From assembly GCA_002841885.1 (NCBI GenBank), contig PHBE01000019.1, positions 1 through 64,000 of the forward strand: DNA of 64,000 nt. The letters are read 5' to 3'. Under the pieces are notes generated by a model. The model had not been told where the DNA came from and made no database searches. It saw only the letters and a list, made by a program, of their open reading frames with translations. Of the stretch, positions 593 through 60,076 are shown piece by piece. Made by a program: the position numbers and the translations under genes. The DNA is from Deltaproteobacteria bacterium HGW-Deltaproteobacteria-18 (GTDB lineage Bacteria; Desulfobacterota; Desulfovibrionia; Desulfovibrionales; Desulfomicrobiaceae). How positions within the stretch are numbered: the first letter of the stretch is position 1; the number at the start of each line of letters is the position of its first letter.

Positions 593-620
593 GGGATTCG
601 CTTAAACTCATAGGCAGGTT

Positions 621-698
621 AAGTCAACGCGAGACTTGACCCCTATTTTGATCTAAGTCAACGCGAGACTTGCCCCCCGTTTGACCCCTATTTTGATC
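621..698. repeat. REP-like repeat pair next to RAYT
   Basis: Two copies begin AAGTCAACGCGAGACTTG (621 and 655) and end CCCCTATTTTGATC. Each contains the dyad AAGTC-n7-GACTT, so it can fold. A related fragment, GGGGTCAAGTCT, occurs at about 2058. Position beside the RAYT gene suggests these are its REP partners (inference). Confidence 0.7.
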
Positions 699-910
699 CC
701 CCATTCCTCTGGTTGGGCCGTGCTCAAGGGCGCCGAGACCATATCGCTGTCAAACTTGGGTGACCGCGCCATATCCGCTGCAGTCAACGCGGCGTCGAGG
801 CAGCGGACGTGGAACAAGAAATTGTCAAACATCGTCGCAGTCAGCCAGGCCGAATGCAAGGTTCAAGCAGGCTGAGGAGTTCGTGGACATGGGGTTCATC
901 CTCTGGGTTT

Positions 911-1123
911 TCATCGCTGTGAAGACCTAATGAACCCCAGGTCTCCCATTCTGTGCGCATAAGGCTCAATGCAGTGCTGGTGCTCATCGATGAACCCCGG
1001 CGCTACGGCCAAGCCTTTGGCATCAATGGTTTCGATGTCCGGAATCTTGTCAGCTGAAATAATGGCGATTCGACCATCTTTGATACCAGCGCTGGATACA
1101 GCATCAAGCTCGCTTTCCGGATC
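911..1123 (-). pseudogene. Amidohydrolase N-terminal fragment
   Basis: On the minus strand an open stretch of about 70 codons reads like the N-terminal part of a D-aminoacylase/dihydroorotase-type amidohydrolase: KDGRIAIIS, then the metal-binding strand motif VAPGFIDEHQH. It has an in-frame stop just upstream (1124-1126) and ends at 911, far short of the usual length of 400 or more residues. I read it as a remnant. No other gene was recognised in the rest of 699-1149. Confidence 0.7.
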
Positions 1124-1149
1124 CTAAGATGTACAGCTATTCTATTTAG

Positions 1150-1917
1150 CTAGAAACGATACACGCCCATAAGTCCGAGGTAAAATTGATTTTCATTACC
1201 TTCGTCCTCAACGATTGGGCTGTCGGCTGCATCATTCAAAAGATATTTGTAACCCAAATTGCCAACGACAGACCAGCACTCAGTGAATTTGTAGTCAGCG
1301 TTCACATACAGGCCGACATCTTTGAAGCCTCCGTCATCAACGCTGTAGTCCTGGAGCGTGCTTGAACCCCGATTACCTGCATCGATCCCGAAGTAGGTGT
1401 CCATATAGTTTTCGCTGGCATAAGTGCTTGAGACTCCAAACGTCATATTGAAGTAGTCGGAAAAGACATGTCTGTAATTACCGCCCAGGGTGACGAGAAA
1501 GCCGTCATGTTCGCCGGAAACGTCCGCAGCAAACTCAAGAGATGCACTCCAGGCCCCGAAGCGGCCTGTGAGAAAAAAACCACCCTCCACCGCAGCGTCA
1601 ACATCCTTCATGGAATCGACCTGGTCGTTATCCACGTCGCCTCGCTCCATTCGGTACTGAAGCAGCGGACCAAACTCGATTTTTTTGTTCAGGATGTTCC
1701 CTTTCAGTTGATTGCCTTTTAACATTACATACTTTCCATCGTCCCAGTTATAGCGGGCATAAAGCAGAGGGACGGCGGTATAATCTTCCGACCCCTCATA
1801 TTCTGGAACCATTCCCAGACCAAGTCCTATGGACGTGTTGAAATCCTGCGCAATCGCGGCCTGAGACAAAAGCAGGATGCTCACACAAGAGAAAAGCGCA
1901 AGTTTTAAGTTCCTCAT
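1150..1917 (-). CDS. MipA/OmpV family outer-membrane protein
   Basis: Predicted outer-membrane beta-barrel of 255 residues. A Sec signal peptide (residues 1-23, ending SQAAIA|QDF) is followed by the family N-terminus GLGLGMVPEYEGSEDY, alternating aromatic strands, and a C-terminal Phe in GLMGVYRF, as expected for BAM-dependent barrels. The ATG at 1917 is chosen because AAGGAGAAAGTA precedes it and the signal peptide begins there; the frame is open further upstream but codes nothing sensible. The MipA name comes from a murein-scaffold partner in E. coli, but most homologues have no proven role. Monocistronic. Confidence 0.88.
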   Translation of the reverse strand: MRNLKLALFSCVSILLLSQAAIAQDFNTSIGLGLGMVPEYEGSEDYTAVPLLYARYNWDDGKYVMLKGNQLKGNILNKKIEFGPLLQYRMERGDVDNDQVDSMKDVDAAVEGGFFLTGRFGAWSASLEFAADVSGEHDGFLVTLGGNYRHVFSDYFNMTFGVSSTYASENYMDTYFGIDAGNRGSSTLQDYSVDDGGFKDVGLYVNADYKFTECWSVVGNLGYKYLLNDAADSPIVEDEGNENQFYLGLMGVYRF

Positions 1918-2174
1918 TACTTTCTCCTTATCCGTGGTTAGGGTTAATGAGATGATAAATCTTGGGGCGACAAAGCGCAAAGAATCCAGAAATGCATCAT
2001 CTGTCGCCACCGCCTGCGATGCTATATATGCGATATACAATTTTGCAAAAAGCAAAGGGGTCAAGTCTGCCTTTGGCTTTTATCAAGTACACGCATGGCA
2101 AATTTATTGCTAGTTATTCTCTGTTGCGCATCATTACAAGCCTATTGACTCCCAGGAATTGAATCGATCGAAAA

Positions 2175-3251
2175 TTAGAACTCCAACATTCCAGTATCCC
2201 CAATAAAACTCACCGTCGAAACCTCTCTCTTCCCAGTCTGCAGAATTTCCGCCTTGTAGGCTCCTTTCCTGATTTCAACCTCTTCGCTCTGCCCCTTCCT
2301 GATCTCCATGCGGACCACCTCGGCGTTCTTGGTGTCGTAAAGCGTCACGTACGTGTCCGTTTTGGCCGAAAGCGTCAGTATCCCGTATTCCTCTGAGCGT
2401 GGGACTTTTTTTGGTTTTGGAAGTTCGTGGCGTTGAAAAACTACGGGAGCTGCGGGAGCCGGGGGAGTCGCAGGCACCGGTGAGGAAACAGTTATCGATG
2501 CAGGTGCGGCTGGTTTATGCGTGGGCGATTTTGGTGAGTTCAGGAGTACGGCTACAATCAGAAAAATCCCAATTATACCTGCCATCTTTAGCAGATCGAG
2601 TTGCCGTTCCCTGTCCGTCTCGTCCGCGCTGTTCCCGAATTTTCTGTTGAGGTTGAGAATATGCTGTCTGGATGTCTCTCGGGATCGTTCCAGCATGGTG
2701 CCGTTTATCTTGAGCAGGATGCGCTGCACCTCGCTTTCCGTCAGGAGGGGAGTGTTTTTGGCGTGGATATACCTTGGCAGACGACCGCTGCGGATGACGT
2801 TGTCCGGCATGTCCGTCTTGAACTCGGCGTCTCCGGTGAAAACGACCACGGAAAAGAGCTTGTCCTCTCCGATCTGGAGCAGGGATTCGAGTTCCTTGAT
2901 GTGTTTGTAGTTCTGTCTGAGCGGGTTCTGGAACGAATTTTTGCTCTTGCCGAAGGTCTGTGTCCATTTGGGATGGTTCGGGTTTCCGAAGATCCATCCA
3001 CTCATATTCTTTGTTTCGATGACGAAGACGCCGTATTCCGAAATGATGATGTGGTCGATCTGCGTGGTGCCGTCTGCCGTGGGGAGGGTGACGTCGTGGA
3101 ATTGGCGATAATCATCCTGGTCGAGTTGAGTCGAGACGGTTTGTCTGACTAGGAATTCTCCAAGCCAGCCCTTGAATGATCTTGAAGGCAGTACGCCTTT
3201 TAAGACCACGATAACGATGATCGCCAAAATAATCAGCAACGGGCTTATCAT
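2175..3251 (-). CDS. NERD-domain membrane protein
   Basis: About 358 residues. Order: N-terminal TM segment (residues 3-18), NERD (nuclease-related) domain at about residues 25-140 with QIDHIII and VFVIETKN resembling the restriction-endonuclease core D...ExK, a linker, a second TM (about residues 222-238), a Pro/Ala-rich spacer and a C-terminal beta domain. The ATG at 3251 is preferred over a TTG five codons upstream because AGG lies just before it. The C-terminal 70 residues look PEGA-like and resemble the end of the secreted protein at 12794-13483. Function unknown. Confidence 0.8.
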   Translation of the reverse strand: MISPLLIILAIIVIVVLKGVLPSRSFKGWLGEFLVRQTVSTQLDQDDYRQFHDVTLPTADGTTQIDHIIISEYGVFVIETKNMSGWIFGNPNHPKWTQTFGKSKNSFQNPLRQNYKHIKELESLLQIGEDKLFSVVVFTGDAEFKTDMPDNVIRSGRLPRYIHAKNTPLLTESEVQRILLKINGTMLERSRETSRQHILNLNRKFGNSADETDRERQLDLLKMAGIIGIFLIVAVLLNSPKSPTHKPAAPASITVSSPVPATPPAPAAPVVFQRHELPKPKKVPRSEEYGILTLSAKTDTYVTLYDTKNAEVVRMEIRKGQSEEVEIRKGAYKAEILQTGKREVSTVSFIGDTGMLEF

Positions 3252-3351
3252 GGGCCTGCCATCCAAGATCGGGTGGCCAAAGCGGAGCTTCGCAGGGAGA
3301 GGAATGCTGCGGGGATGGCGTATTTATTCATATAAAAGGGCTGTTGATGTA

Positions 3352-3376
3352 CAAATTCTTAAGCATAAAGAATTTG
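3352..3376. promoter_or_regulatory. Perfect inverted repeat CAAATTCTT/AAGAATTTG
   Basis: Nine-base perfect arms separated by 7 nt in the gene-free stretch upstream of the NERD gene (3252-3525). It could be an operator or a hairpin; there is no U-run. Nothing else is recognised between 3252 and 3525. Confidence 0.4.
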
Positions 3377-3536
3377 TGAATGGTGTTAATTAGCAGCACA
3401 ATTTGGAAGGATCAAGGGGGGATGCTGTATGACATCGAAGAAAAGTCAGTACGCACTTTTTTTGATGAGAGACAGGATGAAGCCGTTGACGCAAATGCGT
3501 CCGAGCTGTTTTCAATGACGAGGGGATGCGTGGCAC

Positions 3537-3572
3537 AAAAAAAAGGTCCCGGACTGAAGTCCGGAACCTATA
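3537..3572. terminator. Hairpin beside the first att copy
   Basis: A run of A, then GGTCCCGGACT/AGTCCGGAACC on the left side of the tRNA-Arg fragment. Read on the minus strand it is the tRNA terminator (stem then U-run). The preceding GATGCGTGGCACAAAAAAAAGGT is shared with the second copy at 4400. Confidence 0.6.
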
Positions 3573-3578
3573 CGTCCT

Positions 3579-3620
3579 TGGTGCCCTCACCATGACTCGA
3601 AAATGGGCTAACCGGGACTG
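3579..3620 (-). repeat. att copy 1 (degenerate tRNA-Arg 3' end)
   Basis: Matches the 3' part of the tRNA at 23329 with a few changes (CTCACC for CCCACC, GAAAATGG for GAACATGG, GGGACTGG for GGGATTAG). It is the oldest-looking copy. The right arm with GCCAGACACC and GGTGGCG seen after copies 2-4 is not recognisable here. Confidence 0.75.
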
Positions 3621-3740
3621 GGTAACCCAAAAGCGCTTGTTCGTGGTCCTTGCGTCGCCGAATTTGCATCGTTTCGCGAAGAGCCAAACAGCGCGCTTAC
3701 TCGCTAAGGGTGAGTCTTTTTACTTGCATGAATCGAGTAC

Positions 3741-4010
3741 TCAAGGCTTGGAGCGCTTCACCACGTCTGCTTCCAGCAGCATTCGTACATAGCGCGTATA
3801 CGGGATGCCCTTGGCCTTGGCCTTGGCTTTTACGGCCTCCAGCAGTCCCACGGGGATGCGCATGTTCAACGCCCCGTCCTTTGGCTCGATTTCAAATCGC
3901 ATTGGCTGGAATCCGGAAAGGTCATATTGCGACAGATCGGCTTCCTCGACAAACTCTTCGGCGTCCGCATCGCTACGAAGCGACGGCATCTGTTTAGATT
4001 TGTTGTTCAT
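3741..4010 (-). CDS. brnA: BrnA-like antitoxin (ribbon-helix-helix)
   Basis: Antitoxin of a type II BrnT/BrnA module; it would bind BrnT and autorepress the operon through a C-terminal ribbon-helix-helix domain. 89 residues starting MNNKSKQMPS. The acidic middle (ADAEEFVEEADLSQYDL) is followed by the RHH motif LNMRIPVGLLEAVKAKAKA and IPYTRYVRMLL. The start at 4010 overlaps the end of brnT by 17 nt, the usual toxin-first coupling. Together they are the sole cargo of the first att-bounded interval. Family assignment is good; function is inferred from family. Confidence 0.85.
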   Translation of the reverse strand: MNNKSKQMPSLRSDADAEEFVEEADLSQYDLSGFQPMRFEIEPKDGALNMRIPVGLLEAVKAKAKAKGIPYTRYVRMLLEADVVKRSKP

Positions 4011-4278
4011 AGTGATCGACCTCCTTTTTGTGCATATAGCGGGCGCTAATCGGTCGTAGCTTTGTCCAGCCATCAATTTTCTTCAGCATGAACACGAGGA
4101 AAACATAACGCCCCGCCTGGGTTTTCCCGATGGCCCTCATACGCGGCTCATCGGGGCAAGGGTCGGGCATGACGGAGGGTTCGCCTAATAACACCTCTTC
4201 GATTTCTTCACGGGATACGCCATGCTTACCGCATTTAGGCCAGTTGCCGCTATCCCAGTCGAATCCCGCAATTTGCAT
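3994..4278 (-). CDS. brnT: BrnT-like toxin (DUF497 ribonuclease)
   Basis: RelE-fold ribonuclease toxin of the BrnTA family. 94 residues from the ATG at 4278 (MQIAGFDWDSGNWPKCGKHG). The family pattern of WD, a Lys-rich turn, KHGVSREEIEEVLLG, then RMRAIGKTQAGRYVFLVFML and RPISARYMHKKE is complete. TATACT lies just upstream of the start on the minus strand. The frame is open further upstream, but BrnT proteins normally begin close to FDWD. It is followed with overlap by brnA. Likely stabilises the integrated element. Confidence 0.87.
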   Translation of the reverse strand: MQIAGFDWDSGNWPKCGKHGVSREEIEEVLLGEPSVMPDPCPDEPRMRAIGKTQAGRYVFLVFMLKKIDGWTKLRPISARYMHKKEVDHYEQQI

Positions 4279-4408
4279 TATTAAAGTATAGTCATTTGTG
4301 TAGACAAAGGCAACTCGGCCTCTGGAACTCTTCACCATATTCTGGCGTTTACTTCGCATCGCGGATGTTGCGCCTGGATGGATTCAAAAGATGGGGGAAA
4401 TGCGTGGC

Positions 4409-4444
4409 ACAAAAAAAAGGTTCCGAACTTAAGTTCGGAACCTA
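4409..4444. terminator. Hairpin beside att copy 2
   Basis: AAAAAAAAGGTTCCGAACTT/AAGTTCGGAACC, nearly perfect 11-bp arms, directly left of the tRNA fragment. Equivalent to the hairpins at 3537, 7797 and 23286; read leftwards it would end tRNA transcription. Confidence 0.7.
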
Positions 4445-4452
4445 TACGTCCT

Positions 4453-4497
4453 TGGTGCCCCCACCATGACTCGAACATGGGCTAACCGGGATTAGGA
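4453..4497 (-). repeat. att copy 2 (tRNA-Arg 3' end, 45 nt)
   Basis: Identical to positions 23329-23373 of the intact tRNA gene, from the CCA end to the anticodon loop, after which it diverges (AGGAAGCGCTAA instead of AGGAATCCCGTG). It is therefore an attachment core, not a functional tRNA. Confidence 0.9.
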
Positions 4498-4520
4498 AGC
4501 GCTAAGGATGATGGGAATCA

Positions 4521-4589
4521 GCCAGACACCGAACGAATATGTCGGATTATAGTCAGTTTTGTGCGCTTCGGGTGGCGTTTCGGGTGGCG
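4521..4589. other. Conserved att arm 2 with GGTGGCG pair
   Basis: GCCAGACACC (4521-4530), GTCGGATTAT, then GGTGGCG at 4571-4577 and 4583-4589, 12 bp apart. The same series follows copies 3 and 4, with the first heptamer 73-75 bp from the core in each. Interpreted as integrase or accessory-factor arm sites. The rest of 4590-4846 contains no recognised gene. Confidence 0.65.
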
Positions 4590-4846
4590 TATCACTATGT
4601 AGATTTTGAGATCGATTGACCAAACATTCGGTTTAACAGGCCGTTGAAGAACGGTGATCTGCTGTGTCCGCGCAAAGGCAGGGTGCGGTATGTCATGCAT
4701 AAGCGGTCTGGCTTTTTTCGTTTCCTCGCATTTAACCATTTTTTGGACGACCTACGAATTTCCGTTTTCAGCCAGTTAGCCGTAAGAAGGCGAGGTAGCA
4801 GGACGAACCATTACCGCAGTCCTCTGGCTGCGCTCGTTCATGTGGC

Positions 4847-4881
4847 GGCCTGCCCAGTAATCGCGCGGTACCGGGCAGGCC
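4847..4881. terminator. GGCCTGCCC/GGGCAGGCC hairpin
   Basis: Perfect 9-bp arms with a 17-nt loop immediately 3' of the flavoprotein gene on the minus strand. There is no strong U-run, so it may be a stabilising hairpin rather than a classical terminator. Confidence 0.5.
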
Positions 4882-4900
4882 TTGAAATTGGGGGCAGGAA

Positions 4901-5272
4901 TCAGATGGTCTGCTTTACCGACGTGATCGTCACTTCGAGAAGCCGGGTCTGGAAGGTGAATTTCGCTTTCATCATGTCGAAGTCTGGTCCGGATCTGATG
5001 AACTTGGCAGTGCCTTCAAGCAGAAAGCCCGTTCCCGGTCCCATCTTTCCCTGCACTTCCTTGCTCCCGAGAGTAAGTAGCACCTTGTCGTTGATCTGTA
5101 CTTTCTTCTCTGTCTTCCTCATTTTCCAGGCAGGAATCAGGATTTTTCCATCTTCGGTCAGGTGAAGGTAGGAATTCCATGTGTTCACGACATGCGACTC
5201 GTTTTCGGCGCAGGTGACAATGGACACTACCCCTTCTGAGCTGACAACATCCCTGAATATTTGATTAAACAT
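4901..5272 (-). CDS. Pyridoxamine 5'-phosphate oxidase-like flavoprotein
   Basis: 123 residues with the split-barrel pattern of small FMN-binding PNPOx-like proteins: MFNQIFRDVVSSEGVVSIVT, then a strand HLTEDGKILIPAWKM, a central NDKVLLTLGS and GPGTGFLLEGTAKF. Such proteins bind FMN or F420 and act in redox or stress reactions; the substrate cannot be told from sequence. It is transcribed divergently from the Rrf2 regulator at 5405 with a palindrome between them, so control by that regulator is likely (inference). Cargo of the second att interval. Confidence 0.75.
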   Translation of the reverse strand: MFNQIFRDVVSSEGVVSIVTCAENESHVVNTWNSYLHLTEDGKILIPAWKMRKTEKKVQINDKVLLTLGSKEVQGKMGPGTGFLLEGTAKFIRSGPDFDMMKAKFTFQTRLLEVTITSVKQTI

Positions 5273-5300
5273 TTTTTACTCCGTGGCTGAGGGTTATTGT

Positions 5301-5315
5301 GGACAACATGTGTCC
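5301..5315. promoter_or_regulatory. Candidate Rrf2 operator
   Basis: GGACAACATGTGTCC, an imperfect palindrome in the divergent promoter region between the flavoprotein gene and the Rrf2 gene. The left half, with preceding bases, reads ATTGTGGACA, the reverse complement of the TGTCCACAAT motifs upstream of the hydrogenase operon (38518, 38568). Confidence 0.5.
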
Positions 5316-5404
5316 GCGATAGCTATGATCAAGGGGCGTTTTCGTCAAGACAAAAACGGGGCGAGTTGGTTACAGGCAGGGGAACGAAAGCTTGGAGGTT
5401 AGCC

Positions 5405-5893
5405 GTGCAGTTTAGTATCGGGGTAGAGTACGCGTTTCATTCTCTTTTTTACATGGTGGAGATTCCCGGCCGCAAGCCGCTTGGAATTAGGCAAATCGCG
5501 GAACTGAACGCTATTCCGGAGAGTTATCTGTCAAAGGTCTTCGCGAAGCTCAGCAAGGCCGGGATCGTCAGGTCCATTCCTGGTGTGAAGGGCGGTTACG
5601 AACTGGCCAGAAATTCCGAGAACATTTCCTTCTGGGATGTAATTGAGGCTATCGAGGGGCCGTCATATTTCTTCCAGTGCGCGGAAATCAGGAAGAATAA
5701 CATCTTTGTGGATGACCCTTTGGCTTTCACGGACAAATGCCCTTGTCTGATCAAGGTCGTCATCCAGGAAGCAGAGGAACTGCTCCGGACCAGCCTGCGC
5801 GCTAAATCGCTACGCTGGCTGCACGACCAGGCGCATGCCAGTTTCCCTGAAAGCAGAAAGAACGCGATATTGGACTGGATCAAGGCGCTTTAA
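5405..5893 (+). CDS. Rrf2-family transcriptional regulator, Fe-S type
   Basis: 162 residues. Winged-helix N-terminus (GVEYAFHSLFYM, IRQIAELNAIPESYLSKVFAKL, VKGGYELAR) as in IscR/NsrR/RsrR. Three cysteines in the usual window (FFQCAEI, then DKCPCLIK at about residues 100-116) suggest a cluster that senses iron, NO or redox state. The GTG start at 5405 is preceded by GGAGG at 7-nt spacing; upstream in-frame codons lack support. Probably controls itself and the divergent flavoprotein through the palindrome at 5301. Confidence 0.88.
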   Translation: MQFSIGVEYAFHSLFYMVEIPGRKPLGIRQIAELNAIPESYLSKVFAKLSKAGIVRSIPGVKGGYELARNSENISFWDVIEAIEGPSYFFQCAEIRKNNIFVDDPLAFTDKCPCLIKVVIQEAEELLRTSLRAKSLRWLHDQAHASFPESRKNAILDWIKAL

Positions 5894-5962
5894 CCCATGG
5901 GCCGAGGGTTTGGACCTTGAGAATAGGAAGACATATATAAGCTGAACGTCTCGCGAGTGTGG

Positions 5963-6012
5963 ATGAATAAAAAAATCCGACTAGTTGATAACTAATTGGA
6001 TTTTTTTTATTC
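5963..6012. terminator. Bidirectional terminator next to att copy 3
   Basis: GAATAAAAAAATCCGACTAGTT-GATA-AACTAATTGGATTTTTTTTATTC: long near-perfect stem flanked by A and T runs, serving the Rrf2 gene on the plus strand and the tRNA-type transcript on the minus strand. Confidence 0.8.
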
Positions 6013-6015
6013 ATC

Positions 6016-6060
6016 TGGCGTCCTCACCATGACTCGAATATGGGCAAACCAGGATTAGGA
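6016..6060 (-). repeat. att copy 3 (tRNA-Arg 3' end)
   Basis: TGGCGTCCTCACCATGACTC... to GGATTAGGA, 45 nt, matching the intact tRNA with several substitutions. Followed by the same conserved arm as copies 2 and 4. Confidence 0.85.
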
Positions 6061-6083
6061 ACCGCTCAGAATACAGGGAATCG

Positions 6084-6151
6084 GCCAGACACCAATCGGA
6101 TTATGTGGGGTTTGATTGATAATGCCTAATAAGGTGGCATCTCGGGTGGCG
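6084..6151. other. Conserved att arm 3
   Basis: GCCAGACACC (6084-6093) and the pair GGTGGCA (6133) and GGTGGCG (6145), again 12 bp apart. Confidence 0.6.
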
Positions 6152-6171
6152 CTTTGGGTCATGCAAATTTG

Positions 6172-7566
6172 TCAGAGTTCTGTTGAAGCAGAGATGGCAC
6201 GGAACTGCTCAGAACACGCTACGAAAGCCTTGACGAGTTCTGGGTCAAAATGAGTGCCTGAATGATTGACGATCTCTTCAATAGCCTGCTCGTGTGTCCA
6301 AACGGATTTGTAAGGTCTTTCACTAGTCAGTGCGTCATAAACATCTGCGATGGCAGTAATCCTTGCTGATAGTGGAATATCCTGTTCTTTAAGCCCGTGA
6401 GGATACCCTGTCCCGTCCCATTTTTCGTGATGATAAAGGGCGATGTCGCGAGCTAACGCCAAGTAACTGTCCTTGCCAAATTCTTTCCTGAAAACTTCGT
6501 TTGCTTGCAACAACGCTTCGCCAGCGATGATGGTGTGTTGCTTAATGATGTTAAACTCATCTGGAGTTAGGGCTTCTGGCTTGAGGAGTATTTGTGTAGG
6601 AATGGCCGTCTTTCCTATGTCGTGAAGCAAAGAAGCGAGTGTGACATCGTGAATGTAGGAGTAAGAGTGTGATAAAATATAATCTTTGTATATACTTGAA
6701 GATTTAATAATTTGATCAATTATTGCACTTGTATATTGTTGAATTCTTTCTAGATGCTGTCCTGTTGCGGCGTCATAGTGCTCAGCAAGTGAAGCAAGGG
6801 CGTGTATTGAAACGATCTGTGTTGCTTTGATTTCGCGAGTTTTTTCTAATACGGCACTTTCAAGGGACAAATTGCTAGTTGTAAGCTTTGATTCAAATTC
6901 GGTTCGAAAAATATTTGATATGCTTGCTTTGAATAATAAGGATGCAAATATTGCTGATAGAATTGTCCACATTAATGACGTGCAGATACGAAGCGCAAAA
7001 TTATTGTTCATAATTGTGCGTTCTTGTTCTGAAATGTCATAATATATTTCGAATGCACCTTTAAACTTATCTTTGAGAACTGGTAGATAAACTTCTGCAA
7101 CGCTTGAGTTGATACGTTCTCCTTCCATGGTAAGATTTTCTTTGCGCACAACTTTTGAATAAATTCTACCTTTTGAAACTATTTTTTGAAAATATTCATG
7201 CTGATTAATTTGGCCTATTTCATCATTTGTCGATGAAAATAATATCTTACCTTGGGAGTCAAAAATCCTGATTTTCAATATATTAAAGTCTAAAAGTAAA
7301 TTGTTAATATCAGCTACAAACTTATCAGATATATCAATATCATCGTTAAATGTAAAAATATTCATTGATTTTCTGATATGGTTCGCAGTCCTCTTTGCTT
7401 CTGATTCGATGCTCATAAACTGAATTTCATTAAATTTTGGTATAATGAAAAACTCTTGGAAAAGAAGTAAAGATAATGAAATTAAAATAAATAAAAATGT
7501 AATTAATTTCAAAAACGAATTTCTGAAAATATTTAATATTACTTTCGATGTTAATATTTCGTTCAT
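6172..7566 (-). CDS. Membrane HD-GYP cyclic-di-GMP phosphodiesterase
   Basis: 464 residues. TM1 (about residues 14-36), an extracytoplasmic sensor region (about 37-190, single-Cache-like), TM2 (about 192-213), a coiled linker, then an HD-GYP domain (about 250-450). Catalytic motifs are intact: LLHDIGKTAIP, KQHTIIAGEALL, YHHEKWDGTGYPHGL and ADVYDALTSERPY. It should hydrolyse c-di-GMP and so favour motility over attachment (family knowledge). It is the only gene of the third att interval and is more AT-rich than the core genes. The stop at 6172 lies 21 bp from the conserved att arm. Confidence 0.93.
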   Translation of the reverse strand: MNEILTSKVILNIFRNSFLKLITFLFILISLSLLLFQEFFIIPKFNEIQFMSIESEAKRTANHIRKSMNIFTFNDDIDISDKFVADINNLLLDFNILKIRIFDSQGKILFSSTNDEIGQINQHEYFQKIVSKGRIYSKVVRKENLTMEGERINSSVAEVYLPVLKDKFKGAFEIYYDISEQERTIMNNNFALRICTSLMWTILSAIFASLLFKASISNIFRTEFESKLTTSNLSLESAVLEKTREIKATQIVSIHALASLAEHYDAATGQHLERIQQYTSAIIDQIIKSSSIYKDYILSHSYSYIHDVTLASLLHDIGKTAIPTQILLKPEALTPDEFNIIKQHTIIAGEALLQANEVFRKEFGKDSYLALARDIALYHHEKWDGTGYPHGLKEQDIPLSARITAIADVYDALTSERPYKSVWTHEQAIEEIVNHSGTHFDPELVKAFVACSEQFRAISASTEL

Positions 7567-7796
7567 ATATTCAAAATCCTGAATAAAGTTGTGAAATAAT
7601 CAATTAATAGTATTATACATGGAGTGCATTTTGCGCTTTAGGCTTGCATATAAGTATGATGATATAAGGGTGCCTGTCTGAACTCTTAGAATTATTATAC
7701 TCTTAGGGTGAAATTGGGCCTGTACGCCACCAGTTTTGTAATATTCTGATTTATAAGGAAAAAATTAAATTATCCGCGAATGTAGAAAAAAAGAAA
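7567..7796. other. AT-rich upstream region of HD-GYP gene
   Basis: Contains no recognisable gene. Its right end, AGAAAAAAAGAAAGGTTCCGG, matches the sequence spanning the 3' end of the intact integrase gene (23275), suggesting it once ended an integrase. Confidence 0.4.
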
Positions 7797-7827
7797 GGTT
7801 CCGGCTAGTCTGTAACTATCCGGAACC
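7797..7827. terminator. Hairpin beside att copy 4
   Basis: GGTTCCGGCTAGTC-TGTAA-CTATCCGGAACC. Closely similar to the hairpin at 23287 that follows the integrase gene and ends the tRNA transcript. Confidence 0.75.
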
Positions 7828-7836
7828 TTTGATTGT

Positions 7837-7881
7837 TGGTGCCCCCACCATGACTCGAACATGGGCTAACCGGGATTAGGA
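7837..7881 (-). repeat. att copy 4 (tRNA-Arg 3' end)
   Basis: TGGTGCCCCCACCATGACTC... to GGGATTAGGA, identical to 23329-23373 over 45 nt. It marks the left end of the interval holding the ImmA/IrrE operon, Septu-like genes and inovirus. Confidence 0.9.
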
Positions 7882-7904
7882 ACCGTTCAATATTCCGGGA
7901 ACCA

Positions 7905-7974
7905 GCCAGACACCGGCCGGATAATATCGGATTATGATCGGTTTTCGCTGAAAAAGGTGGCGTTTTGGGTGGTG
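7905..7974. other. Conserved att arm 4
   Basis: GCCAGACACC (7905-7914), TCGGATTATGATCGGTTTT, then GGTGGCG (7956) and GGTGGTG (7968), 12 bp apart. Confidence 0.65.
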
Positions 7975-8109
7975 TCAAGTACGGGTTCTGTGATTTTTGT
8001 CGATCATTTGGGGAAAATATTTCGAAGCTAGTAGTTGACAGTATGGGTCACCGCGGTATAAAAATTGACAAATCAGTTGATAATTTATGCGGAATTGATC
8101 GGAGGTTTG

Positions 8110-8775
8110 ATGTTAACAAGGACTTTGCCTTTCAAGAAGTTTTTAGACATGGAGTTTCCGCTTGGTTTTCAATCCCAGCTTCCTTTGGCTCTGGAGACGG
8201 CTTACTCGGAAGCATTTGAGGTCGGTCGCGTGAGTGGTTTGTCAGAGGGTGGAGTGACAAAGTTGTTGCCACCGCTTGAGAGTGAGCGCTTGTCGGATGC
8301 GCAAGGCCTTTTTGCACAAAACGCTGTTCACAATTTGGCATCTAGGTTTCCGTCGTTAAAAGCAAATTTTGGTTCCAATTCAAAAAGAAGACAGCATGTT
8401 CAAGTTAGATCAGAAAATACATTGCTAACTGTCCATAGAGTATATGCGCCTGAGTCAATGCCAAAAAATGCTGTCTATAGAAAAACAAATGCTGTGCAAA
8501 ATATTCGTTTTTTCTCATTCGTAAGTGATTTTTTTGATCAAGATGAAAATATGACGTATATGTATTTATTGCATGGTGCATCAATTCAAGATAAATCTCA
8601 ACTTGGATTCGTCACAATCGCTATTCCTGACCATGAGAATAAACGGTGTTTAGTTTCTAAAACCATTTTTATGCACTCAGATTATTCTGTAACATCTGAA
8701 GCTATAGAAATTGAATCTACAGCTATGATTACTTTAAAAATCGGTGCGAAAAAGAAGAAAATTACATCATTATGA
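8110..8775 (+). CDS. Hypothetical protein paired with XRE-ImmA/IrrE
   Basis: 221 residues, not recognised. The ATG at 8110 is chosen because GGAGG lies 4 nt upstream; earlier in-frame starts lack one. No signal peptide or membrane segment is seen. The middle is basic (NSKRRQHVQVRS), the second half looks beta-rich, and the tail is very basic (GAKKKKITSL). Its TGA overlaps the next ATG (ATGA), so the two proteins are translationally coupled and may form a toxin/antitoxin-like or defence pair (inference from arrangement only). It is AT-rich relative to core genes. Confidence 0.75.
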   Translation: MLTRTLPFKKFLDMEFPLGFQSQLPLALETAYSEAFEVGRVSGLSEGGVTKLLPPLESERLSDAQGLFAQNAVHNLASRFPSLKANFGSNSKRRQHVQVRSENTLLTVHRVYAPESMPKNAVYRKTNAVQNIRFFSFVSDFFDQDENMTYMYLLHGASIQDKSQLGFVTIAIPDHENKRCLVSKTIFMHSDYSVTSEAIEIESTAMITLKIGAKKKKITSL

Positions 8776-9941
8776 GCAATTCGGTTTTATTTAATCGTTT
8801 TCGTTTAATAGATGCAAGAACTGCCAGGGGGTTAACACAGACGCAGCTTGCAGAAATTTCTGGTATCAAGAAACAATCTATTTCATGTTACGAAAATGGA
8901 AGACAAGTTCCTCGGCCTGAGAATATATTGAACTTGGCAGAGAAACTTGGTGTAACGTTGTCTTTTTTGCAAAAAGAAAGTTTTTCGTACTCCAACAATA
9001 CAATTTATTTTAGATCCCAGCGGGGATTGTCCGCAAAAGAGTGGAAAAAAGCAGAAGTTAAGCTTCGGTGGTTTGAGGAAATTTTGTCATATTTTGAAGA
9101 GTATGTTGACTTAGTTTCTGTAAATATTCCGGATAAATTTGATGTTAGCGATAGGCTGGGCAGGGTAACTGCTGACGAAATTGAGGATATTGCGTCCTCT
9201 CTTAGAGAATATTGGGGTCTTGGACTTGGTCCAATATCGAATATTACTCGACTCATGGAGAATAATGGGGCGATAATTATTCGAGTTCCATTCGATGTAA
9301 AAGAAGAAGATGCTTTTTCGCAGTGGGTTAATGATTCAGCTACTCCTGTCGTAGTTATGGTTGCTGAGGATCCGAGTGCTTGTCGTGACAGATTTAGCTT
9401 GGCCCATGAGTTGGGACATCTAGTCTTGCATAGGGATGTTATTCGAACCCAGGATAATTTAAATCTTATAGAAGAGCAGGCTAATATGTTTGCGTCTGCA
9501 TTTCTTCTTCCAGCGGCTTCGTATCCTAGAGAATTTAGATTTCCGACATTGGAAATATATCAAATGCTCAAGGAGCGCTGGAAAGTTTCTATCAAGGCTC
9601 AAATATTTCGATCAAAGGCTTTAGGACTAATTACTGAAGAGACTGCGCGTAATTTTTATATGAATATGGCGAGGCGAAAATGGCTAAAAAAAGAGCCATT
9701 GGACGAATCTATATCTTTTGAAGAACCAAAAGTTATCAAAGATATCGTTGCATTGTTGGCCGAGCAGCTTGATATTGATGTGGAAGATATTGCTGGCGCA
9801 ACGGCGATCTCAGTGCAAGATGTTGTCCGTTTATGCAATTTGGAAGAATATAAGGTGAGTGAATGTGATATTACCCCAGTTTTGCGACAAAACAGGTCCA
9901 AGGTTCTGAAATTTTCGGGAAGTAAAATTGAATGTATTTAA
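8772..9941 (+). CDS. XRE-family regulator fused to ImmA/IrrE metallopeptidase
   Basis: 389 residues. An N-terminal helix-turn-helix (about residues 5-65; RLIDARTARGLTQTQLAEIS, IKKQSISCYENG) is followed by an ImmA/IrrE zinc peptidase domain with the HExxH motif in LAHELGHLVLH (about residues 215-225) and EEQANMFASAFLLP, whose Glu is the third-ligand region. Proteins of this design cleave or are controlled with a partner repressor or toxin, as with ImmA in ICEBs1. Coupled to the unknown gene at 8110. Followed by a dead integrase, so this pair probably arrived as its own element. Confidence 0.9.
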   Translation: MSNSVLFNRFRLIDARTARGLTQTQLAEISGIKKQSISCYENGRQVPRPENILNLAEKLGVTLSFLQKESFSYSNNTIYFRSQRGLSAKEWKKAEVKLRWFEEILSYFEEYVDLVSVNIPDKFDVSDRLGRVTADEIEDIASSLREYWGLGLGPISNITRLMENNGAIIIRVPFDVKEEDAFSQWVNDSATPVVVMVAEDPSACRDRFSLAHELGHLVLHRDVIRTQDNLNLIEEQANMFASAFLLPAASYPREFRFPTLEIYQMLKERWKVSIKAQIFRSKALGLITEETARNFYMNMARRKWLKKEPLDESISFEEPKVIKDIVALLAEQLDIDVEDIAGATAISVQDVVRLCNLEEYKVSECDITPVLRQNRSKVLKFSGSKIECI

Positions 9942-47160: not shown

Positions 47161-47182
47161 TGAATGGATGTTTTTCCGGAAC

Positions 47183-47266
47183 CAGCTTTCCTACGGCAGC
47201 ATGATCTGCGTCAGGTCGTAAGGGTCGGGAACGTGTCCCCTCTCAGCCCATCGGGCTCCCCCAGCT
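47183..47266 (-). promoter_or_regulatory. TPP riboswitch (thi box)
   Basis: Minus strand shows the conserved THI elements in order: GGGGGAGCCCG, GGGCTGAGAGGG, ACCCTTACGACCTGA, then GATCATGCTGCCGTAGGAA. An intrinsic terminator follows 23 nt later, so it controls thiSGHFE by transcription termination. Confidence 0.95.
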
Positions 47267-47299
47267 TGTGCGGCATAGCCTTATGTGGATCGGGTGGGG

Positions 47300-55745: not shown

Positions 55746-57359
55746 TCAAAAGGCCGATTTGACGGGAGGCTGGGGCTGATGGATTGGCCCAGGGCAAAAT
55801 GGGTCGCGATCCTTGGCGATGTCCAGGCCAAGTCCGGAAACTACCGCCGGACAGCCGCCGCATGTCGCTATGATTGAGCATTCCCGGCAGGCTTCGCTTC
55901 GGCTTCGGTACGAGACGGCTGCTTGCCCGTCGTAAATTTCGCCAAGGGTGGCGGTTGAAATGTTTCCGATAATCGAAGGGAATTTTCGACAGGCATGCAC
56001 TTCTCCGTCCGGGAGCAGAGCCATGAAATTGAAGGCCGCTCCACAGCCGAATCCGGTACAGCCCCCGAAGAGTGGTCCTCCCCTGGCGGCAAGATGAGCA
56101 TTGAGCATGTTGTCCTTGAAAGACAGGACCTTGAGCTGAGAGGCCGCTTCGCAATACCGTTCCGCAAAGTCCTGAAATTCAGCGGGATCGGGCAGGGCAA
56201 GAGCGGCACCTCTGCCCACGGGGGAGAGCCGGTTGAAGGCCAGGCCCCAGACTTTCCCTTCCAATATTTCGGCCAGGGGCAGCACCTGGTTCATGTTGTC
56301 ACGCGTCAGGGTGAGCATGACCTGCCCTTGGACCTCTACAGCCTGCAATACCTCAAGAAAGTTCATAACCCGCTGGAAATGTCCATGGCCGCGGATGGAG
56401 TCGTTGTGTGCGGGCAATCCTTCGAGGCTGACCTGAAAATATTCCGGCCGGGCGATATCGATGATCGCCTCCATCATTTCCCTGGTAGTTGGATTCCCGA
56501 GGATGGCCAGGGAGAAACCTTTCCGGGCTGCCCGTTCGTAGACTTTCAGAAATCCGGGGTAGAGCAGGGGGTTTCCTCCGGAAAAACTTATCTGGCCGAG
56601 AACATGCCGATCGCGACAAAAAGAATCGAAATCATCGATCACATCCAAGGCCGAGTCCAGGGCCATATTCGATCGGGCGCTACGATCGTAGCAATGACGG
56701 CAAAACAGATCGCAGTCCTGGGTGATGTGCCACTGCAGGGTGAAGACTTCAGCGCTGAGATGTTGTTCTGAAATGGACAGGTTGGCGGAAAAATCCTGGC
56801 GCTTGCGTCGCAAGAGTGATGAGGGAGAAAGGAGAATTCCTTTTTCCACGGCTTTTCTGAGAAGAGAATCAACAAATCCGGGCGCTAATTTGGATTCTGC
56901 TTCTGCGCTCGAGGGATCCACTCCGTCCGCGATAATTTTGATTGCGGCGAGATCTTCAGGCTTTGCTACGGCAATATCAATTTTCTGAGTGCCTTTATTT
57001 TTCCAAACCAGGACCATCTCCTGGCCTAAAACTGGACATGTGTTTGTATTACGGCCGTGAATCACGTCAACACATCCAGAAGTATTCAGTACACATAACT
57101 CAAGGCTTGGATTTACGATAATGCCAGTCCCGGGTTCAGGCTGAAGAACCGCCTTTGACTCAACATGCTTCCTTGCAATTTCTAAAGTACAGATATCCGG
57201 CAGAAAAATTGGTGCCAAGCCTTCTCTGGACAGCTGCTCGACAGTCGAGAGGAGTTTTTCTGCGCTACTGTTTAGGGAATCTCCAAGACTTGAGAGAGTC
57301 TGTGCATCTAGAAACGATGCTGTTGTTGGATATAGTGAATGCAGTGCCGCTTGATTCAT
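55746..57359 (-). CDS. sbtM: Radical SAM/SPASM peptide maturase (selenobiotic SbtM-like)
   Basis: 537 residues. An N-terminal 190-residue region (substrate recognition; EICxL-type strand LPDICTLEIARKH, NTNTCPVLGQEMVLVW), the radical SAM core with CDLFCRHC (CxxxCxxC, about residues 216-223) and FSGGNPLLYP, then a C-terminal SPASM region with many Cys: GGCTGFGCGAAF, VHACRKFP, EACRECSIIATCGGC and DPFC, enough for two auxiliary clusters. AGGA lies before the ATG. It directly follows, on the same strand, the two-Sec precursor gene at 57480. The likely job is oxidative cross-linking of the precursor, possibly at selenocysteine (inference). Confidence 0.88.
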   Translation of the reverse strand: MNQAALHSLYPTTASFLDAQTLSSLGDSLNSSAEKLLSTVEQLSREGLAPIFLPDICTLEIARKHVESKAVLQPEPGTGIIVNPSLELCVLNTSGCVDVIHGRNTNTCPVLGQEMVLVWKNKGTQKIDIAVAKPEDLAAIKIIADGVDPSSAEAESKLAPGFVDSLLRKAVEKGILLSPSSLLRRKRQDFSANLSISEQHLSAEVFTLQWHITQDCDLFCRHCYDRSARSNMALDSALDVIDDFDSFCRDRHVLGQISFSGGNPLLYPGFLKVYERAARKGFSLAILGNPTTREMMEAIIDIARPEYFQVSLEGLPAHNDSIRGHGHFQRVMNFLEVLQAVEVQGQVMLTLTRDNMNQVLPLAEILEGKVWGLAFNRLSPVGRGAALALPDPAEFQDFAERYCEAASQLKVLSFKDNMLNAHLAARGGPLFGGCTGFGCGAAFNFMALLPDGEVHACRKFPSIIGNISTATLGEIYDGQAAVSYRSRSEACRECSIIATCGGCPAVVSGLGLDIAKDRDPFCPGPIHQPQPPVKSAF

Positions 57360-57434
57360 GGTCTTTTCCTGCGAAAGTGGCCGAAGATTATCTAGGCTAA
57401 AAGGATTGTCCGGCGTTCATCAACAAGCGACACA

Positions 57435-57456
57435 GGGGGAGCTACGCAACTCCCCC
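57435..57456 (-). promoter_or_regulatory. Hairpin between precursor and maturase genes
   Basis: Perfect 7-bp arms GGGGGAG/CTCCCCC with an 8-nt loop and no U-run. Probably tunes the ratio of precursor to maturase by attenuation or mRNA processing. Confidence 0.6.
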
Positions 57457-57479
57457 CATATTTCCTGAGCGAAACGGTG

Positions 57480-57731
57480 TTACTGTTTTTTGGGTGTCTC
57501 GGTGCTCCCGGCACCGGCTTTTGCTCCACCACCTCAACCGCTTCCACCAGGAACAGTTTTTGTGGAATTACCGTCAGATTCATTTCCATCGCTGCCACCT
57601 GCAGCGGACTTTGAACTCCCACCTCAGCCGCTTCCGGAAGCCTTGGTGCTGACCACGCCTACGGAGGCACTGGCCAAGAGCGCCGCAAGGCAGCAGCCCG
57701 CAAGAACTTTTTTCAAATTGTCTGTGTCCAT
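57480..57731 (-). CDS. sbtA: Selenocysteine-containing RiPP precursor (selenobiotic SbtA-like)
   Basis: 83-residue peptide if both in-frame TGA codons (57624-57626 and 57534-57536) are read as selenocysteine. AAAGGAG lies just before the ATG. The leader is hydrophobic (about residues 7-27, KKVLAGCCLAALLASASVG). Both Sec fall in the same context, GSG-U-GG (residues 36 and 66), in Gly/Ser-rich, low-hydrophobic core segments ending KKQ. The normal stop is TAA. Each TGA is followed by 17 nt, then a 6-bp stem, 5-nt loop, 6-bp stem. It lies just upstream of a radical SAM/SPASM maturase. Cys codons in the leader are TGC, so TGA is not a general reassignment. Confidence 0.85.
57500..57536 (-). promoter_or_regulatory. 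SECIS-like element 2
   Basis: UGA (57536-57534), 17-nt spacer, stem CGGUGC/GCACCG with loop CGGGA (57516-57500). Geometry identical to element 1. Confidence 0.75.
57590..57626 (-). promoter_or_regulatory. SECIS-like element 1
   Basis: UGA (57626-57624), 17-nt spacer, stem CGCUGC/GCAGCG with loop AGGUG (57606-57590). The GGU in the apical loop and the UGCAGGU sequence recall the E. coli fdhF SECIS recognised by SelB. Confidence 0.82.
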
Positions 57732-57743
57732 TTTCGCTCCTTT

Positions 57744-57759
57744 GTGAACAATTGTTCAC
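57744..57759. promoter_or_regulatory. 16-bp perfect palindrome in sbtA leader
   Basis: GTGAACAATTGTTCAC directly upstream of the ribosome binding site of the precursor gene. Probable operator, or a 5' UTR hairpin. Confidence 0.55.
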
Positions 57760-58612
57760 GGTTGTATTGGAAACACCGATGCTATCTGGGGTGATATATA
57801 GATAGTAGCTATCTGAATTACGCCAGAAACGTCAACACTTGGCACAAAATGAAGCGGAAAAATCGAAATTTTTATATGCTGTATTATCTTTTATTATAAT
57901 TATTGGTAGCTTATCAGTAATTTCTGTTTAAATTAAAACAGGAAATTTTTTCAGTATTAATTTAGAAAATTGACAATGCATCATTAAATATTGATAATTA
58001 TTCGTAATAATAGCGTATTTTTTTGTACAGGTTGGGTATGTGGTAGGTTGTATCAATGAATTGAATTCGTTTTTTATATTTTTTTATTTTGATTTAGCTA
58101 TTCGAGAAGTATTAGGGAAGAGACGTACGTGATGACTGAAGTTTTTATGAGCTAATCAAAAAATAATACAAAAATCTACATTTATTAGATTTCGTAAATA
58201 TCTATAAATTCAGTTAATTTTAGTAATATAATTACGTTTATATTTATATAATAATGAACAGCACAATTTTAAATATCAGCAAGCTAACTTAACAATTATA
58301 AATGTAATAGAGAAGTTAATATAATTTTTGATATGAATATAATTATTTTTTTTATGTATAAAATTTAAAGTTATAATTTGCGTATAGTTTAATAATTCAT
58401 AGATATGATTCATGATGTCGATTAAATGCTTTAAAAATTTTGATTTACTTCATTAGTGTCAGACAGGCTCGTGGGATACGATTTGCGCCCATAGGTTTCC
58501 ATCATTAATAGGGTAAAATACAGTGCAAGAGTGTGGATATAAAAAATTTGTGAAACAACCTAGTGCTGATGAATCCGGCAGTGCGCATGGAGGGCAAGCC
58601 GAAGACAGCCCC
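57760..58612. other. Very AT-rich gene-free region
   Basis: About 850 bp with long A/T runs, in sharp contrast to the flanking GC-rich genes. No frame longer than a few dozen codons looks coding on either strand. It presumably contains the sbtA promoter at its left end. The composition suggests foreign DNA or a silenced (H-NS-like bound) region. Confidence 0.6.
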
Positions 58613-60076
58613 TTATTTTTCGAAAGCTGAGATGATCCAGCCCGCGTGAGTGCTTCGTGACGAGGTCAGTCCAGCTGCGCGAAACTCTTTCTCGAGCAGG
58701 GATTCGTCCTTCTCGCGGGCTACCAATCGGTATCTGCCCGAAGCCGTCTGCAGGAATCGTCGCAACGATTCTTTTCGGTCCGCGCCGTCGCTGCCAATCC
58801 ATTTCACCATCCCTCCGGCATAGAACTGCAGTCCATACGCCTTGTCTTTGACCAGTGCGACAATTTCTCCATCTCCAGCTGTTTCGACCTGCGTGTACAG
58901 TTGTCGCATGTTCTGGTGCATGGGCAGAACGCCCAGGGCCGCGCGTGCTGCGACAAAGAGCGCGATCGTGCCGACAAAGGTCACTGCTACGGTACGAAGC
59001 CCTATGCGCGAACGTTGCTGGGCCAGGCCGTGGGCCATGAACAACGTCAGCGGGATGGAGAGAGGCAGGATGTAGAGCGGCAGCCTGCTTTTAGCCAGAC
59101 AAAATACGACAAGGGGTGCTACCACCCAAAGCCCCAGAAAGATCCGCTGTGCTTGCGGCAGTGCTTGCCAGACCTTTTTGGGGTTTCGGAGCATCCAGCC
59201 CCATTGGATTTGTCCCAGAAGCAGGAGTGGCGCGTAAATCACCAGCGGTTTCCACCATTGCGGGTTGCGGTGAAACGTGTCGGAGGTCAGTCTGCCGATG
59301 ATTTCCTGATCCAGATAGTAGGAAAACAGATCCGGGTGCTTTGCGATGATGAATGCGAAGTAGCCCAGGACCGGCATGAGGAAAAGGGCCAGTCCGAGGG
59401 GGAGGAAAAGTCTCCCGTCTCGGAACATCCAGATGTGCCAGGGAATGATGGCAAGTAAGGGCAACAAGCCAGGAGGCCCCTTGGTCAGGAATGCCAGGCC
59501 GAAGGCTGCCCACATCATGGCCAGCAGTTTCCTGGACTGTCGGGGCGAGTGTGCCCAGATGACGTAGCATGCCACGGCCAAGGTTTCAAAGAAAGCCAGC
59601 AGGATGTCCGTGCTGAGAATCGTTCCGCCGAGCACTGGAAGGACGGACGTTGCATAGATGGCCAGTGTCGCCCAACCTGAAATTTCACCCCACAGGATCC
59701 ATGCCATCCAGGCCGTCACCAGGCCGGTACAGATGAAGGCCGCTGCATTTCCGAGACGAACGGAAGATTCGCCAGGTCCGGCCATGGCCATCCCTGCGGC
59801 CATGGCCCAATAGACCATGGGTGGTTTGGTCCAGTGGGGGTCGGAGTCCAGGGTGGGTTCAAGGTAGTTGCCACTGGAGAGCATTTCGAGAGCGCATTCA
59901 GCGTAGCGCCCTTCGGTCGTTTCAAGCAGGCCTCGCTGCATGTTCCCTGCGAAGGAAACGAGGATGAGTCCCGCCAGAGCGCCCAGCCATAGCATGCGCC
60001 GATGTCTTTGCCAGCCGTCATCCAAGCTTAGTAACGCCAATGCATTCCATGATTTTTTCAGCATATTTGAATTCAT
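58613..60076 (-). CDS. ArnT/PMT-like membrane glycosyltransferase
   Basis: 487 residues. GT-C fold lipid-linked sugar transferase: after TM1, the periplasmic loop holds the catalytic-type ETTEGRYAECALEML (acidic pair, about residues 52-66) and DPHWTKPPMVYW, as in ArnT and dolichyl-phosphate-mannose protein mannosyltransferases. About ten further TM segments and a C-terminal soluble domain follow. It would move a sugar from an undecaprenyl or polyprenyl carrier to lipid A, glycan or protein. It is flanked on both sides by AT-rich DNA. Confidence 0.87.
   Translation of the reverse strand: MNSNMLKKSWNALALLSLDDGWQRHRRMLWLGALAGLILVSFAGNMQRGLLETTEGRYAECALEMLSSGNYLEPTLDSDPHWTKPPMVYWAMAAGMAMAGPGESSVRLGNAAAFICTGLVTAWMAWILWGEISGWATLAIYATSVLPVLGGTILSTDILLAFFETLAVACYVIWAHSPRQSRKLLAMMWAAFGLAFLTKGPPGLLPLLAIIPWHIWMFRDGRLFLPLGLALFLMPVLGYFAFIIAKHPDLFSYYLDQEIIGRLTSDTFHRNPQWWKPLVIYAPLLLLGQIQWGWMLRNPKKVWQALPQAQRIFLGLWVVAPLVVFCLAKSRLPLYILPLSIPLTLFMAHGLAQQRSRIGLRTVAVTFVGTIALFVAARAALGVLPMHQNMRQLYTQVETAGDGEIVALVKDKAYGLQFYAGGMVKWIGSDGADRKESLRRFLQTASGRYRLVAREKDESLLEKEFRAAGLTSSRSTHAGWIISAFEK

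Follow-up and report, generated by a model that had tools for sequence, protein, structure and literature searches.

Selenocysteine (Sec)-bearing peptides of the SbtA/SbtM type are ribosomally synthesized and post-translationally modified peptides (RiPPs); this family was reportedly first proposed by Haft and Basu in 2011, and the SbtA/SbtM system of Lewis and co-workers (2021) is said to come from Geobacter lovleyi. Here we analyse a cassette of this type in the window, i.e., the whole stretch of 64,000 nucleotides at the start of contig PHBE01000019.1 (assembly GCA_002841885.1) of Deltaproteobacteria bacterium HGW-Deltaproteobacteria-18, where the precursor gene sbtA lies upstream of the gene for the maturase SbtM. 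As cited in other papers, an SbtM makes thiooxazole from Cys and also acts on Sec peptides, removing four hydrogens from both and giving thiooxazole on the Cys substrate, and its product shares the ~305 nm band of 5-thiooxazole peptides (Lewis et al. 2021, Biochemistry 60:3347). Thiooxazole peptides are further described as bufferins and oxazolins (together captophorins), which bind copper and carry secretion signals, some of them being lipidated (PMC12668002 and others); doxX is reported in many bufferin clusters and linked to oxidative or sulphur stress.

Our preferred reading, to which we give a probability of roughly 0.57, is that the product of the SbtA-SbtM cassette is a (seleno)oxazole peptide that is probably secreted and likely binds metal, in analogy to the captophorins and bufferins. 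A preliminary description had assigned the locus to the SbtA/SbtM ('selenobiotic') RiPP type, and this is supported by both NCBIfam models, since SbtA scores 43.4 bits against TIGR04081 (curated cut-off 30.5) and SbtM 755.6 bits against TIGR04082 (curated cut-off 350), and by a full Sec machinery: selA, selB, tRNA-Sec (selC) and selD are all present above cut-off in the host genome (3.99 Mb, 99.97% complete). The gene layout given there holds as well, namely an 83-codon gene with two TGAs in GSG-U-GG contexts, a ribosome binding site and a TAA stop, upstream of a radical SAM/SPASM gene; both genes are on the minus strand, on which it was silent. It had also foreseen that gene callers would break the precursor, and under the standard code the frame does end after 35 residues, at codon 36. 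The modification, by contrast, had been called unknown, a statement overtaken by the thiooxazole that Lewis et al. 2021 are cited as reporting for an SbtM. With TGA read as Sec, the precursor is MDTDNLKKVLAGCCLAALLASASVGVVSTKASGSGUGGSSKSAAGGSDGNESDGNSTKTVPGGSGUGGGAKAGAGSTETPKKQ, with the contexts SGSG-U-GG at Sec36 and GGSG-U-GG at Sec66, and sbtM follows downstream after a gap of 120 bases (Table 1).

The sequence evidence, namely the Sec machinery, the hairpins and the interchange of Sec and Cys, strongly supports insertion of Sec at both window UGAs. The same-genus genome G015 has TGC at the second TGA with the remainder of the frame intact, and locus L006 has a first TGA of its own that the aligner gapped at the Sec36 place. 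Over the 29 codons between the two TGAs, 11 bases distinguish the window from G015, and 10 of these are third positions (10 codons synonymous, 1 not); the comparison with G001 is less clear, with 3, 1 and 6 changes at positions 1, 2 and 3 (4 codons synonymous, 5 not). Few changes fall in the 17 codons that follow the second TGA, and in both comparisons they are mostly non-synonymous (synonymous/non-synonymous 0/2 for G015 and 1/3 for G001). Homologous loci, where replacement of the TGAs by unrelated stops or frameshifts would have told against the frame, keep it and show interchange of U and C. Sec and Cys are thus interchangeable at the SbtA core site, which fits a chalcogen that undergoes modification: TGC is found in G015, Trichlorobacter thiogenes (L078) carries two tandem precursors before one SbtM (427-1189), one of them all-Cys and the other all-Sec, and the L071 precursor combines nine Cys after residue 26 with one Sec. 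As a side observation on the Sec machinery, the selD match (G000:C23:27995-28912) spans one in-frame TGA, and the host SelD is probably itself a selenoprotein.

For the family survey, SbtM loci were taken from genome contigs (the best 80 of 137 confirmed), with the precursor ends set by a scripted trimming rule. A precursor was recognised at 71 of the 80 loci, and 67 of these 71, with the ambiguous L013 counted, contain an in-frame TGA; the exceptions are L039 and L043, which have no TGA, and L042 and L069, in which a TGA after the core was taken as the stop. The loci L004, L005, L006 and L067 are apparently identical to L113, L115, L116 and L124 (same peptides) and are not independent. All 34 SbtA sequences scanned (32 of 75 precursors plus L113 and L114) match TIGR04081 at E ≤0.1. 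Additional precursors occur at L082, which has two, and at L035, where the second is without Sec; in the host genome, a search for a second SbtA precursor gave none (one match at E 1). SbtM above cut-off is present in 5/16 same-genus genomes, 16/61 relatives and 25/247 genomes across the phylum, i.e., the cassette is accessory.

In predicted folds, most Sec codons of the family have their own Sec insertion sequence (SECIS)-like hairpin with a small G-bearing loop; for internal Sec, this hairpin lies within the coding sequence. The mean best-hairpin score for 173 TGAs taken as Sec, a set that includes probable stops (two of L042 and the last TGAs of L021, L046 and L054), is 17.1 compared with 7.3 in dinucleotide shuffles, and a score of ≥13 is reached by 93% of these TGAs and 14% of shuffles. 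A G-type loop is found at 166/173 (42.8 expected), the stem has 5-8 pairs in 163/173, and the loop lies 17-24 nucleotides (nt) after the TGA in 155/173. Covariation was assessed with the site anchored on the loop alone, which avoids choosing sites by their stems, and with 500 reshuffles as the null; of the 118 internal sites, 89 contained exactly one loop match, and 82 of these were unique. In the stem, pairs 3-7 exceed all 500 reshuffles (pair 3: 70/82 against a mean of 39.1; pair 6: 80 against 47.7), pair 8 hardly varies and fails to exceed them, and pairs 1-2, which lie outside the stem, are at chance (25 against 25.0; 11 against 7.9). Reshuffling leaves relatedness in place, and the null result at the outer pairs is a good internal control. 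At three loci (approximately L034:1076-1117, L082:5394-5435 and L083:5761-5805), pairs of TGAs nine bases apart (SSUSSU-like) are followed by a single hairpin, which suggests that one SECIS could serve two Sec codons.

The Gly/Ser-rich core repeats described earlier for the locus are present; they are largely a coding imprint of the Sec-insertion hairpins, since stem and loop encode the motif, which is absent after Cys and after C-terminal Sec. A GAGS-like motif (GAGS, GAGG, SAVS and similar, a pattern composed after inspection of Sec-type sequences) follows 107/116 internal Sec, 'internal' being defined differently here and in the covariation count of 118. By comparison, it follows 2/57 C-terminal Sec, where the hairpin extends over the stop or is located past it, and 0/41 core Cys in 11 Cys-type precursors, a Cys set that omits L043 and the Cys of the mixed precursors L033, L058, L067 and G015. 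The portion common to Sec and Cys members is S-G/S-U/C-G/S. The peptide repeat would in this way be explained by RNA structure, which matters when a mature core is guessed from conserved residues, and the hairpins offer a simple route to precursors truncated at their first TGA in automated gene calls.

Table 1 Features of the sbtA-sbtM locus, with positions in the window
Feature	Positions	Strand	Basis
sbtA precursor gene, 83 codons plus TAA (57482-57480), two in-frame TGA (Sec36, Sec66)	57480..57731	minus	frame reading; TIGR04081
Conserved leader, residues 1-26: KK, then hydrophobic stretch	57654..57731	minus	proposed signal peptide (putative function)
TGA, predicted Sec36	57624..57626	minus	aligned TGA in G001, G015 and L005
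SECIS-like hairpin for Sec36, CGCTGC-AGGTG-GCAGCG, 23 nt from TGA to loop	57590..57606	minus	prediction
TGA, predicted Sec66; TGC (Cys) in same-genus G015	57534..57536	minus	frame reading; alignment
SECIS-like hairpin for Sec66, CGGTGC-CGGGA-GCACCG, encodes GAGST, 23 nt from TGA to loop	57500..57516	minus	prediction
Predicted hairpin between sbtA and sbtM	57428..57461	minus	fold prediction
sbtM, radical SAM/SPASM maturase, 537 amino acids	55746..57359	minus	TIGR04082
Ribosome binding site AAAGGAG, just upstream of the sbtA ATG, with palindrome GTGAACAATTGTTCAC (57744-57759) directly upstream	57732..57759	minus	sequence

In SbtM, the cysteines C216, C220 and C223 of the CxxxCxxC motif and those of the SPASM region are invariant among 54 aligned sequences, and the window protein is 45% identical to the SbtM of T. 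thiogenes L078. The SbtM profile aligns to the structures with PDB codes 6efn, 5wgg and 6c8v over the radical SAM core and the SPASM region (best E 2.9e-15). In the AlphaFold2 model (mean pLDDT 91.8), residues ~87-173 form three strands followed by three helices, an order that we take to resemble the fold of the RiPP recognition element (RRE), and this segment could be a recognition domain; a Pfam scan of residues 1-200 gave no match.

The leader of SbtA may be a general secretion signal, of the type I or the type II kind, a proposal based on the presence of a lipobox in about half of the family and on switches between the two classes. Its consensus is near LKKxLAGxGxAGLxAG, and in 34 of 74 precursors the hydrophobic stretch is followed by a lipobox with its terminal Cys; the count varies with the pattern (35 rows, with L017 doubtful, in one version and 34/74 in the final one), and lipobox and leader counts omit the truncated L037. 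Among Cys at residues 19-36, 35/39 are preceded by a lipobox-like triplet, compared with 256/1293 of the other residues there, a comparison of related sequences that yields no true probability, and 25 of the 35 lipobox-type Cys are at residue 29. On a quick SbtM tree, which includes 77/81 SbtM (L005, L034, L035 and L063 are absent) and has 29/74 inner branches open, the lipobox class switches at least nine times over 67 labelled rows, an earlier pattern that overlooked L008 and L009 having given 10; the class can change between close neighbours, L022 and L070 being an example. The hydrophobic leader of the preliminary description is present and its interpretation amended, in that it may serve secretion. 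For the window SbtA, a signal peptidase I site after residue 32 (S-T-K-A before SGSGU) is possible, if statistically unsupported. At L068:5551-5553, a TGA occupies the position of the relatives' lipobox Cys, which may reflect either Sec at the site of lipidation or an error in sequencing.

No neighbour gene is conserved across the family. Clustering of 780 neighbouring open reading frames (ORFs) at 81 loci gave, apart from SbtM, a largest cluster spanning 20 loci, judged from sequence to be response-regulator-like, and a next one spanning 7. Even the most frequent Pfam family is present in no more than 4 of the 136 immediate neighbours (76 loci, window excluded; best 25 of 174 families by count). 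Since no other gene travels with the sbtA-sbtM pair, a general export route would be the simplest reading. Among the families listed, SelA and the ArsP_1 permease are each found in 2/136 immediate neighbours. The window gene at 58613-60076, used as a marker to look for an empty site in relatives, has a match in 5/16 same-genus genomes, one of which is the window's own genome. Between sbtA and sbtM, a G/C-rich hairpin is found at the matching place in the 4 near relatives examined, with partly different letters, and could possibly set the precursor:enzyme ratio. The palindrome upstream of the sbtA ribosome binding site is perfect in the window and imperfect in G001 and G015, and is a possible candidate operator. 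Further upstream, at 57801-58400, the sequence is AT-rich (GC 0.16-0.27 per 200-base block) in a GC-richer surrounding region. Elsewhere in the window, a thiamine pyrophosphate (TPP) riboswitch is present at 47171-47272 on the minus strand (67.6 bits).

The preferred reading implies four steps. Sec would be inserted at both UGAs, each with its own predicted SECIS-like hairpin. Cytoplasmic SbtM would recognise the leader and take four hydrogens from every Sec or Cys, oxidising it to seleno- or thiooxazole, a step modelled on the reported chemistry of a related SbtM. The leader would then act as a signal peptide and be removed ahead of the core, by signal peptidase I in the window's member and by signal peptidase II after lipidation in other members, which would fit both the lipobox in about half of the family and the lack of a conserved linked exporter or protease. 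Finally, the mature peptide would act in the cell envelope as a ligand of a soft metal, for instance Cu(I). This metal-binding step is the least certain of the four; it is drawn from the analogy with captophorins and bufferins and from one locus in which the cassette lies between an efflux set and DoxX, i.e., L039 of Omnitrophota (3-9200), with the order OEP, CusB, CusA, a Cys-type sbtA with GKGSCG repeats, sbtM, DoxX and an NDH-2-like gene. The iron enzymes of the MNIO family (PF05114), which act on captophorins, have no member in the host genome at E 1e-20 and are found in 6/247 phylum genomes and 0/25 of those with SbtM; mutual exclusion of MNIO and SbtM was considered as evidence and dropped, as 0/25 is expected when only 6/247 have MNIO.

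Several observations weigh against this proposal. Selenooxazole formation is known second-hand only, and the efflux/DoxX context amounts to the single locus L039: a phmmer search with its DoxX found no second DoxX among the 780 neighbour ORFs, resistance-nodulation-division (RND) pumps occur at 5/81 loci, perhaps no excess, and the three window neighbours scanned contain no metal-related family. No precursor was found at 9/80 SbtM loci (L025, L047 and L064, all three of which start at a contig end, and L028, L036, L041, L061, L062 and L080). Co-occurrence of sbtM with selB was dropped as evidence: selB is found in 24/25 phylum genomes with SbtM, the sole miss being the 76% complete G170, and says little because 221/247 genomes have it. 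The new Cys of G015, a recent change outside the 41 Cys counted above, still carries GAGST. As to export, the window SbtA has no lipobox after the hydrophobic stretch, its LAGC (residues 10-13) preceding that stretch; the first ten residues have a low net charge (-1 to +4 in the family, 0 in the window); the leader is more conserved than usual signal peptides, as expected of a pure recognition leader; and an AxA-like triplet within 14 residues before the core occurs in 35/40 non-lipobox precursors, compared with 36.5 expected by shuffling. AxA sites were consequently rejected as support for type I signal peptides, and this control slightly lowered our confidence in the export and metal-binding reading and in the bolder formulation given below.

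These leader features favour an alternative: the window SbtA and the other non-lipobox members, if not the whole family, would have an ordinary RiPP leader that serves recognition and is no signal peptide, and the peptide would remain cytoplasmic or leave by an unlinked transporter. Conservation is high, positive charge is low, and AxA-like sites are at chance in the 40 non-lipobox members. We regard this alternative as unlikely, although it deserves serious attention, as members sharing the same leader do carry the lipobox and the class changes repeatedly on the SbtM tree. The product of the cassette might also be a secreted antimicrobial or a signal rather than a metal ligand. A table in a 2026 review names TIGR04081 'Selenobacteriocin', and a small modified peptide of patchy occurrence, both within the genus and across the phylum, would fit that label; however, no immunity, export or protease gene is conserved among the immediate neighbours, lipobox members would remain anchored in the membrane, which is odd for a diffusible toxin, and the X-U/C-G sites are retained across cores whose spacers vary freely, so that we consider this role improbable.

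An exported redox, selenium-storage or peroxide-scavenging agent, whose selenols are protected or tuned by the modification, would draw on the several selenols of a flexible peptide and on the stress link made for doxX of bufferin clusters. Such a function is slightly more improbable still, since the free selenol required for redox chemistry would presumably be altered once an oxazole forms, and no redox partner family is conserved beside SbtM loci. That the TGAs are true stops, leaving a 35-residue peptide or a decayed gene, agrees with the standard code, which closes the frame at codon 36, but can hardly be maintained: the change from TGA to TGC in an intact frame, the third-position bias against G015, the hairpins and the Sec machinery rule out this reading of sbtA.

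If export and metal binding hold, two unrelated chemistries, one of them O2-dependent, would have converged on one envelope metallophore, and Se would replace S in a ligand and not in an enzyme active site. A bolder formulation, towards which we are tentative and lean somewhat to the doubtful side, is that SbtA peptides are seleno-captophorins, made by an anaerobic radical SAM route to the thiooxazole ligand otherwise of MNIO type, with S upgraded to Se and with the SECIS of each Sec codon having written the Gly-Ala-Gly-Ser repeat into a metal-binding peptide that is exported or lipidated. In the literature searched, which was mostly outside subscription journals and lacked key papers, we found the enzyme described, no role for Sec-bearing RiPPs, no paper that connects SbtA with metals, with signal peptides or with a hairpin for each Sec, and no description of the hairpin imprint or of the lipobox-bearing half of the family.

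Among known systems, the SPASM enzymes SkfB (6efn), CteB (presumably the protein of 5wgg) and PqqE (6c8v) are like SbtM in the radical SAM core and the SPASM domain, with only distant similarity, and their products differ from that of SbtM. The lipidated RiPPs DybA and NedA are described as sharing with SbtA relatives a lipobox after a hydrophobic leader and a modified core; unlike these, which are modified by MNIO enzymes and contain Cys only, the window SbtA has no such lipobox. Captophorins, bufferins and oxazolins are alike in the Gly-flanked Cys motifs reported for them, and would be so in their reported thiooxazole and signal-peptide precursors of both kinds, whereas captophorins and bufferins are made by an iron MNIO with a partner protein and the window's peptide would be made by a radical SAM enzyme and has Sec beside Cys. 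From the system of Lewis et al. the locus differs in lineage, its SbtM having been compared with that of L078. With the SbtA/SbtM thio(seleno)oxazole RiPPs, it shares both gene families above curated cut-offs, the Sec/Cys S-G-U/C-G core and, as reported for the known system, a UGA with a downstream insertion element.

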